From NCBI RefSeq assembly GCF_000835495.1, contig NW_015622543.1, positions 620,001-684,000 of the forward strand: a DNA stretch of 64,000 bases, read 5' to 3'. The stretch is from Cladophialophora immunda (taxonomy: Eukaryota; Ascomycota; Eurotiomycetes; Chaetothyriales; Herpotrichiellaceae). The notes under the pieces are model-generated. The model was not told the DNA's origin and made no database searches. It saw nothing but the letters and a program-made list of their open reading frames with translations. Positions 19,303 to 28,396 of the stretch are shown here, in pieces. Each line of letters opens with the position of its first letter. Position 1 is the stretch's first letter. The translations under genes were made by a program, and so were the position numbers.

Positions 19303-22300
19303 CTACACCAAGGATACTACCTCGTCCTTCAGATTGCCAACAGCTTGTCCGTCGTGATACATGGCCCCATGAACGTAGCACTCTCCTCGTAGGTCATAGA
19401 ACTTGGTGCCAGGTCTTTTTCGGAGCACGAACGGCACGCTAGCTCCATGGACCAGAAAGATGTTGTCCTTCGGCTTGGTTCCTCCGGGCACGACTCCCGC
19501 ATATCCTCTCGTGGTAAGACAGGCCGCTGCGTCGGGAATCCTCCCGAGGAAGGCAGCGACCGTCTCCCAAAATTGGTTTCGTCGCTGCTGGACCTCATCT
19601 GGCTCGGAGAGGTGTTGCCGCGCATCCCGGCCAGGACGCAGGGCGAGAATCTCGTTTTCAAAACCTTGCGGCCATACTCGAGGCGGGTTCTCCTCCTCCC
19701 GGCTCTTCTCCAATGGGGGGAGGTGTGTCCTCGTTTGTGGGCCGACAGCATCTCCGATGAGGATCTTGATAAGCACATGGTCGTGCCAGTGCTTTTCCAG
19801 GTTCGGGTAGTAATGGAGAAAGGACAAGTGCTGGCGAAGCTCTTCTAGAGTGTTGCTGAAACGGATGGTTTCCGCGCCGGGGCCGATGGGGAGAGATCGG
19901 CAGCTCTGAACGGTATCGAACATCTTGCCTGTGATGGATAGAACGGGATTGAGTCCTGGGTTGCTTATGATGGGATTCGGGTCAAGGGATGCACCTGCGC
20001 TGAATCCAGCCTTATTTCTCGTCCCAACCGCTCTCCATGTGGAGATGGTAGGTCCATAGTGATGCTTTCCATCGTGGTTCATTAGGTCGGGGATCCAGGA
20101 CGAAAACTGACTGCCCTTTTCTCTTCCAGCCCGGTACAGAAGCTCGAGAACGCGATTCCTTTTGACGAACTCCTCGGCGTATCTCGAAAGTATGACGGCA
20201 TCATCTGATTCATAGTCGGGTATAAAAGCATCGTCGTCGCTGCTCGTGTCAGCTGCCAGGTTGAGCATGGCGAAGAGCTTGTCGCGCGGTTTGGAGGACT
20301 TGGTATAGAAGAACATTTCGATCAGTCTCAGAAAAGGAAGCTTCAAACGGCCCACTCGAGGTTGGTCCGAGTGGCCTTCCAAACACCGTCGCGTGTGGTG
20401 TAGAGCACGGGCAGGATCCGAATGTGTGACTAGTAGTTGCTTCCCGTCTGTTGCTCCTCCAGCGGCATATAGCTGCTGCACATGTTCCTCGAACGCCATG
20501 ACCCCTTCCATAAAGTCGTCCCATTCGATTTGGGAATTCTCGTCCATAATGGTGATGCGGGAGCCAAAGACCAGCTCTTGGATGATCCAGGTCCGAGTGA
20601 ACCACGGCCGTTGCAGAAATGCGCTGATCTGCATTATTTCCTCGTCACTCAATAGAAGAGCTTGAACTGCGTGTTCCCATGGCCCTCGACGCGATCCACG
20701 CTGCTTGCCGAGTTTATCGAGTAGACCAATGGCATCGCAGTCGTCGTCCTTCCTGCTGCCGATCCAGACAATCACACGTTTGGCTTGGCTGTATAAGGAT
20801 CCCATGCGGCGGACCTGCATGCTCTTCTCGAGGTTGTCCTTCTGATTGATGCAGACGGCGTCCGCCCATATCAAGTCATTTACGCCGTCACGGCGAAGGC
20901 GGCGGAGGCATGTCCATAAAGATTCTGTGATGGGGATTTCCACATCATTTACCACAAATTGGAATGGCGAAAGCTTTGTGGGCTCGGCACCCCAGACATA
21001 AGATATCGCACAGAACTTAACCAAAGGCATGCTGTGCTTGAATGACGACGCTACCATGAGCTTTCCTTTCAGCCGTGAGTTCCCATCGCCGTCGAGGTCG
21101 AGTTTTAGCAGCCGAATCTGGTCCGCACGAATCTCGAGGCCTTTGTAGATCTTGTCTGTTTCCGAGGCCGTGATTGACTCCGTGGGTCTTTCGACGAGCA
21201 TGGCCGAGGCCAGTGGCGAGATGCTCCCTCGAAAGGAGCCAGCAGCCTCGATTGAAATAGAGCCCTCCTGGTGAAGTCGCCAAGGGTCGGCGTACAAGGC
21301 GATTCCCGGGTTTGTACGGACATGGTACACGCGGGCGAGGACGAACACATTGTCGGGTCTCGTCTTCCTCGTCTTGCCGCTACTCAAAGTCATCGCTTTG
21401 GCCTGGTAACAAAGTGATCTGTCAGTTTTGGTATTTTTGATTGCTTTCCTCTTTGGCTAGTGTGGCTAGCTATGCTGACCTTATTATATTGCTCATTCGA
21501 CAGTCTAAATGGCCCATGTAGGTTCCCGTTAGTAGCGCAGACTTGTATGTGAAATTTGCACGTCTCGTTGAGCGCTGAATCAAGCATCTGATAGCGTCGA
21601 ATAGTCGAATCTCGGAGCTTGCCACGAGTCTCGGATATTGTGAAAGTGGAATGATTATCTTCCTCGGTTTTCTCTTCATACGGTTTGTGTCCGTTGCGGG
21701 AGCGCATGCTGCTCGTCCAGTGCTCATTAGGATGGTAGGAATCTTGGCCGAGAAGCGAACCTAGAAGCTGAGATACCTGGCCCAGATGATGCTGCGTCAA
21801 CAATAAGGAAAGAGGAGAATGGATTCAGCAAAAACTGACAACCAAGACGAATACGTACGTAAAGTTCAGCGAAATATCTGGTGTCCTGGGTATCCTCGTC
21901 CAAGAATACTGTTGATGGAGATGGATTGAATAAGAGGCCGCGGTTTGTATTCACAAAGCTGTCCTCGAGGCATCGAGACATGAACAAGTCGAGCAATTCT
22001 GACGCGTCCGTTTGGTCGTTGCGTGGAACAATGCGCCGTGGGCTGGCTCGATTGCTCAGCCGCAGCACTTCACCCCCCCTGGCGCCAACAGAGTGTGATC
22101 GAACTTCTTGGGCTGTGGCTCCGACCGACAAGTCCCCAACTTGTCTCGGGCGATGCATGACAAAGTTGTAGTCGTCCTTGTTCTCGCTCCTTAGCTTTGG
22201 GCCCTTGTCCATCATTGGAAGTGTAGTCAAGGCGGCGTCCGACACGCTCGTGCTTTGGCAGTCTTCTGTAATCTGGATGTTTGATCGGCTTTGGTTCGCA

Positions 22301-28300: not shown

Positions 28301-28396
28301 GTCTTTGATGTTCCAACTATCGTTTCCAGGTTCCCTGCTGCGTGTGATGTCCTCAACATAGCGTCGGGCTCGATCTTCTAGGGCCACATCGGTCAT
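19303..28396 (-). CDS. Giant fusion protein: GHKL/Hsp90-type ATPase (NO VEIN-like) - linker - DUF3883 - HET domain
   Basis: Eight exons (28396-28281, 28187-27395, 27327-25025, 24969-24950, 24881-23370, 23306-21859, 21791-21480, 21402-19303) give 2867 residues without a frame break. Residues 40-250 are a GHKL ATPase with N-box ELLQNADDN (54-62), G1 motif DGF (D88) and G2 GEKGIGFKS (118-126), all intact. Residues to about 1160 resemble the NO VEIN/sacsin-like fungal family. Then come Ser/Thr repeats, hydrophobic segments near 1295-1337 and 1495-1516, and an acidic disordered stretch. DUF3883 (NOV_C) covers about 2064-2220, with EHWTSSMRSRNGHKPYE and VFVLARVYHVRTNPGIAL. A HET domain follows at about 2253-2430 with SYVWG (2302), WADAVCINQKD and MGSLYSQAKRVIVWIG. 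HET domains drive fungal heterokaryon incompatibility; GHKL ATPases act as ATP clamps. The end of DUF3883 and the HET domain share one exon, so that join needs no splicing. Less likely, two genes meet near 23.3 kb. Confidence 0.8.
23690..23990 (-). repeat. Degenerate coding repeat in linker of the giant gene
   Basis: The linker contains two full copies and one partial copy of a roughly 38-residue unit that starts TLPRSTA and ends PLSIATPR, with WDN(L/V)LS inside. A second pair of about 45-residue units (ESSI... / ESSV...) lies just before it. Such repeats suggest a flexible stalk. Confidence 0.6.
24950..24969 (-). other. 20-nt microexon of the giant gene
   Basis: Flanked by introns 25024-24970 (GTAAGC...GTCAG) and 24949-24882 (GTGAGT...CCAG). 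It encodes KKEPHE between the phase-2 and phase-1 junctions and is needed to keep the NO VEIN-like reading frame (…KYIAR-KKEPHE-SDDVKQRKALNQL…). Confidence 0.7.

Follow-up and report, generated by a model that had tools for sequence, protein, structure and literature searches.

A GHKL/sacsin-type ATPase, a NOV_C/DUF3883-like domain and a HET domain fused in one giant gene of Cladophialophora immunda

A 64,000-nucleotide stretch of the Cladophialophora immunda genome (contig NW_015622543.1, positions 620,001 to 684,000; hereafter the window) carries one giant gene in which a GHKL/sacsin-type ATPase, a NOV_C/DUF3883-like domain (NOV) and a HET domain are joined (Table 1). The fusion is confirmed. 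The domains and their order, the conservation of the ATPase residues, the loss of a nuclease motif from NOV and the different ancestry of the two halves can be read from the sequence, and we consider it moderately probable that the product is an ATP-gated switch protein of the fungal cell-death or immunity type. Three points go beyond a preliminary description of the window: the nuclease motif is broken in HET-fused copies, the clade to which the protein belongs is chimeric, and its linker is membrane-like.

One gene with three domains

That description had proposed a single giant gene of eight exons encoding a 2867-residue protein. Completing its splice sites with the remaining ones gave a stop-free frame of 2842 amino acids (aa), and the coordinates, strand and exon number are upheld by this open spliced frame. 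The acceptor of the sixth intron, originally drawn as 21858-21792, was moved to 21777 because relatives carry ELYVSHLLGSLLG (P0121) or ELYMSEYLKRHL (P0007) at this point and the window matches them when spliced there. The single protein therefore stands, with a corrected length of 2837 aa; its introns measure 63 to 132 bases, the sixth being 82 after correction. Full-length relatives argue for the same model: P0121 from Fonsecaea pedrosoi (2770 aa) matches the window protein end to end, agrees with it at start and end, and is 90% identical in the NOV-HET region. The proposed direct passage from NOV into HET was also borne out, since the final NOV strand (FVLARVYHV..LYADPWRLH) and HET share one uninterrupted exon (21402-19303) and the junction lies inside a single protein in relatives P0001-P0008. 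Among close kin neither separate genes nor HET-less copies appeared; all five members of the window's clade (the window protein and P0121-P0124) have the whole layout.

It is scarcely credible that a neighbouring ATPase-NOV gene and a HET gene were joined here through wrong splicing. Such an artefact could draw on the seven predicted introns that the model needs, on the weak-looking donor of the last one (GTCAGC) and on a pair in the same genome (L014) that looks separate, its NOV frame running into a stop with HET about 3.5 kb further on. However, the same full-length layout occurs in public annotations of other species, and besides the shared exon of the window and the single proteins P0001-P0008, the paralogue L013 holds the NOV end and HET in one open frame. 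The sequence immediately upstream of the gene contains, in the minus-strand reading, a stretch of 23 C (28582-28604), possibly a sequencing slip or a promoter feature.

The window protein was scanned against Pfam in five segments, with matches reported down to E<=1. SACS (PF25794) matched residues 45-147 with 37.5 bits (cut-off 32.8), and the segments showed a single SACS stretch, no NACHT or NB-ARC match at E<=1 and no HEPN or DnaJ match. The motifs ELLQNADD with E54 and N58, NEDGF at 86 and GEKGIGFKS at 118, all kept in relatives, include what we take to be the catalytic Glu, the Mg-binding Asn and the glycine-rich lid, supporting the earlier call of an intact ATPase. Of 91 HET-bearing rows, 89 have this Glu and Asn and two have gaps there; where letters are present neither residue ever varies, with or without HET, and the lid glycines vary in at most one row. 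The HET domain, likewise described as complete, matched PF06985 over the whole profile (1-146 of 146) with 104.4 bits against a cut-off of 22.5. Passages of PMC12881547 and PMC10197012 present HET as TIR-related and its overexpression as sufficient to kill cells; our own test of HET likeness to TIR gave a weak result. PF26639, precomputed in the post-HET extension of many relatives, was not reported by the Pfam copy scanned.

Table 1. Features of the giant gene, in window coordinates
Feature	Position	Strand	Basis or remark
Whole gene	19303..28396	minus	8 exons, 2837 aa; open spliced frame and end-to-end relative P0121
Exons 1-4	28396-28281, 28187-27395, 27327-25742, 25675-25025	minus	
Exons 5-8	24892-23370, 23306-21859, 21776-21480, 21402-19303	minus	
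GHKL/sacsin-type ATPase core, residues 32-413	26998..28303	minus	Pfam SACS match and motif counts
Long variable linker, residues 1171-1980; ancestry switches between its two sides	22036..24528	minus	conflicting trees
Weak hydrophobic segment, residues 1273-1291, hydropathy 1.79	24166..24222	minus	within soluble-core range
Strong membrane-helix-like segment, residues 1473-1491, hydropathy 2.32	23566..23622	minus	hydropathy
NOV_C/DUF3883-like domain, residues 2081-2190, split by intron 21479-21403	21247..21653	minus	family profile and P0007 fold
Former (D/E)xK active-site motif, now HIQVCAT (Q and C replace acid and lysine)	21531..21551	minus	
HET domain, residues 2232-2423	20548..21123	minus	PF06985 and own profile
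C-terminal extension after HET, residues 2424-2837	19306..20547	minus	precomputed domains of relatives

Loss of the nuclease motif from HET-fused NOV domains

The DUF3883 assignment of the window protein rests on its relatives. PF13020 gave no match at E<=1 in the window's own NOV segment. A six-frame genome search with PF13020 found no match, a null that says little because it also missed the paralogues L014, L017 and L019, in which our own profile finds NOV with an intact motif. Among other relatives P0234 stayed under the cut-off and P0187 and P0127 gave no match. We nevertheless assign the domain to DUF3883 because P0244, aligned by the same home-made NOV profile, passes PF13020 (22.8 bits; cut-off 22.1) and P0007 has a matching predicted fold. 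The predicted model of the P0007 NOV domain is a PD-(D/E)XK-like nuclease fold, and 48 of the 50 rows in its fold comparison are nucleases that we take to be PD-(D/E)XK enzymes.

Of 32 HET-less NOV rows, 22 have an intact (D/E)xK motif, and none of the 96 readable HET-bearing rows has one (2 of 98 were unreadable). The other HET-less rows read DxR in four cases and further forms in six, two of these ExV; the lysine survives in six HET-bearing rows, always combined with Leu or Phe in place of the acidic residue. The association of motif and HET has a Fisher p of 2e-17, computed over rows that are related and not independent. Among 116 rows scored for both traits, four changes suffice for the HET state and five for the motif; once four probably truncated or chimeric models are dropped, the HET state needs only one, so the association amounts to about one evolutionary contrast. 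More telling than the counts is the kind of change at the lysine column: in the presence of HET this position holds 13 different residues, the acidic position varies too, and the column ranks 74th of 105 in conservation, compared with 25th of 107 in the absence of HET.

Since the PD-(D/E)XK-like fold is kept and the active-site motif lost, the HET-bearing NOV domain is most likely a scaffold or a nucleic-acid-binding part, not a nuclease. The story of the motif is not simple, however: the upstream Asp is mostly gone in HET-less rows already (kept in 2 of 31 readable rows, and in no readable HET-bearing row). There is a small chance that NOV still works as a nuclease through other residues, HET merely adding signalling. 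In PD-(D/E)XK enzymes variant lysine positions can serve, and some motif-flanking positions are still conserved with HET; a second Asp five positions on persists in 38 of 94 readable HET-bearing rows, against 28 of 31 HET-less ones. DUF3883 is moreover termed a novel REase domain in a passage of PMC3710099. Yet a replacement catalytic residue would be expected to be constant, unlike the variable lysine and acidic positions described above.

Spread of the layout and mixed ancestry of the window's clade

A NOV-HET query against proteins of similar length returned 34 proteins, 33 of which carry NOV and HET by our own profiles (P0154 lacks NOV). The ATPase query gave 1620 matches at E<=0.001, the best 120 of which were used. 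The resulting long-protein set comprised 141 members, 140 relatives and the window protein. HET was found in 99 of them, 98 of these also with NOV; ATPase, NOV and HET occurred together in 91 of the 141 and in that order in all 91, figures that are not population frequencies because the set was gathered by similarity. The eight HET-bearing rows without our ATPase profile are five DUF3684-type proteins, P0140, P0141 and P0154. Named sources of the relatives include Fonsecaea, Cladophialophora, Coccidioides, Aspergillus, Fusarium, Clonostachys, Xylaria and Zopfia. The layout, which had been regarded as new, is thus found repeatedly across many Pezizomycotina and can be seen in public domain listings; our literature searches found no published description of the ATPase-NOV-HET family, which is widespread and, as far as these searches reach, apparently undescribed.

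At least 11 changes of HET state are needed on the tree built from 128 ATPase halves when all rows are counted. A good number of the scattered HET-less entries resemble short gene models; 10 of the 42 HET-less proteins also have no NOV match. P0222 and P0255, close tree neighbours with the same species name, differ in that one carries HET and the other does not. P0143 (4043 aa, Cudoniella acicularis) has ankyrin and other domains listed beside SACS and HET, and may be a merged model or a further fusion.

The same genome has eight SACS places. L013 (contig C1) is its second ATPase-NOV-HET locus, whereas in L017, L019 and L020 an ATPase and NOV are present but the roughly 10 kb examined gave no HET match. 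The NOV motif of the paralogues reads E-V-K in L014, L017 and L019 and D-V-R in L020; P0187 matches a 752-aa exon of contig C8 at 100% identity. HET genes exceed 100 in some fungi according to a passage of PMC10197012, and this genome has at least 151 HET matches, pieces of single genes included. With a HET match some 3.5 kb beyond the SACS-NOV gene (L014:5745-5976 and L015:1-954), contig C6 shows the sort of adjacent pair that could give rise to such a fusion. On contig C7 a SACS-NOV gene is preceded, on its own strand, by a HET frame (L016 and L012).

The window's clade (window, F. pedrosoi P0121 and three Clonostachys proteins, P0122-P0124) was compared in trees of 31 hand-picked proteins with set A (P0125, P0130, P0131, P0133, P0135, P0136, P0138, P0139) and set B (P0155, P0156, P0160, P0161, P0173, P0218), both sets having been picked after larger trees were seen. 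Over the first 700 residues the clade joined set B (support 96), and grouping it with set A cost 145.5 log-likelihood units; over the part from NOV to the end it joined set A (support 100), and grouping with set B cost 415.4 units. Residues 700-1130 of the ATPase half rejected A (58.3 units) and not B (0.35), although B formed no clade in the best tree. On the C-terminal side B was rejected by NOV with its 45 preceding residues (69.3 units; 29 rows, P0130 and P0139 omitted), by HET alone (118.7 units) and by the post-HET part (193.4 units). These sequence trees indicate that the clade is a chimera whose ATPase half and NOV-HET half come from different branches, and because the trees on the two sides conflict, the switch is placed within the linker. 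The NOV-HET half also stands behind DUF3684-type ATPases in five proteins at two places of the tree, and a passage of PMC4986451 describes module reassortment for fungal NLRs.

The linker itself is 665-924 residues long in the window's clade and 230-476 in sets A and B. All five clade members have two hydrophobic segments flanking a Pro-rich stretch, whose richness in Ser and Thr is clearest in the window protein and P0121. Hydropathy of the second segment ranges from 2.25 to 2.87, and linker values of 2.0 or more occur in just six of 91 HET-bearing proteins, five of them this clade. The first segment (1.64 to 1.81) stays within what the ATPase core, presumably soluble, reaches in its best stretches (95th percentile 1.72, maximum 1.89), making a second membrane helix doubtful. 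Judged by hydropathy, the linker of this clade may anchor the protein in a membrane.

A candidate switch protein and its relation to known systems

GHKL ATPases generally close as ATP-bound dimers. Closure of the window protein as a dimer, signalling through HET, death of the cell and anchoring in a membrane are inferred parts of a possible mechanism. A signal would act on the ATPase half or on the variable linker, which is the likely sensing or adaptor part; ATP binding by the GHKL domain would close a dimeric clamp; closure would, through NOV, unite two C-terminal HET domains as death effectors; and their union would lead to death or signalling. A plus-strand stretch at 12442-16912, oriented convergently to the giant gene, whose end is 2.4 kb away, has a PNP_UDP-like frame (15.9 bits) and an NB-ARC-like part (15.8 bits), both under the Pfam cut-offs, and nine TPR_10 stretches. 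It looks like a fungal NLR, provided that its two frames form one gene, and fits an immune setting without proving it.

The gene may have the self/non-self role first proposed for it. Two functional alternatives were weighed. The protein could be an allorecognition (het) locus and not a sensor of foreign agents: HET is present in many of the known het genes, as passages of PMC12881547 and PMC10197012 state, and reassorted halves would fit rapid turnover. We think this unlikely, as the same sources report that the majority of HET genes are not allorecognition loci. A role chiefly as a sacsin-like chaperone or proteostasis factor, with HET regulatory and non-lethal, would suit the sacsin/Hsp90-like ATPase of the window protein and of its relatives P0122 and P0187. 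It is improbable given the single SACS stretch, the lack of HEPN and DnaJ matches in the scanned segments and the description of HET as a cell-death domain in those passages.

Beyond the ATP-gated switch, we tentatively suggest that ATPase-NOV-HET proteins may be a further class of immune receptor in fungi, alongside NLRs and HET-only proteins. On this possible scheme the GHKL clamp would be related to a bacterial defence-candidate ATPase; an ancestral nuclease effector would have lost its active site, the TIR-like HET taking over as effector; and sensing and effector halves would reassort in the linker, which the window's clade may have made a membrane anchor. The preserved ATPase set against the decayed nuclease motif suggests such an effector swap, and chimeric ancestry means that halves are exchanged, as in NLR repertoires. 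A HET domain placed behind a conserved ATPase in a large family offers a concrete, testable gate for its activation.

Among known systems, the DUF3684-type proteins (P0126-P0129 and P0132) share the NOV-HET half, mostly at 40-60% identity, but the ATPase that precedes it belongs to another family and reaches about 17% identity in the parts that can be aligned; all five are listed with PF12449, which a scan confirmed in P0127. For the ATPase half, TmtA of PADLOC, a known or candidate bacterial defence protein, is the relevant likeness: four relatives matched it strongly (P0121, P0187, P0145 and P0234), P0121 best with E 3.4e-79 over residues 12-623 and profile positions 5-634 of 1302. About 600 residues of the P0121 ATPase half are thus matched, roughly half of the profile, with NOV and HET outside it; literature searches found no paper on TmtA. 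NO VEIN-type proteins, in which NOV_C accompanies a SACS ATPase (one example being P0187, from this genome), have the same ATPase family and a homologous NOV; the window protein adds HET and the C-terminal extension and has lost the motif, P0187 itself reading DxR. Sacsin shares the Hsp90-like ATPase family, but passages of PMC3710099 describe it as repeated SACS units with HEPN and DnaJ, in contrast to the one SACS unit and HET of the window protein, and mention sacsin-like animal proteins that carry DEATH domains, conceptually the nearest parallel to the HET fusion. The HET-NACHT-WD40 NLRs of Podospora anserina (hnwd) likewise pair an NTPase switch with a HET death effector. The window protein differs in having a GHKL/sacsin-type ATPase in place of NACHT, a C-terminal HET and, between the two, a nuclease-like domain whose motif is broken; the Pfam scan also detected no repeat sensor. 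It is best read as analogous to an NLR, yet no NLR itself.
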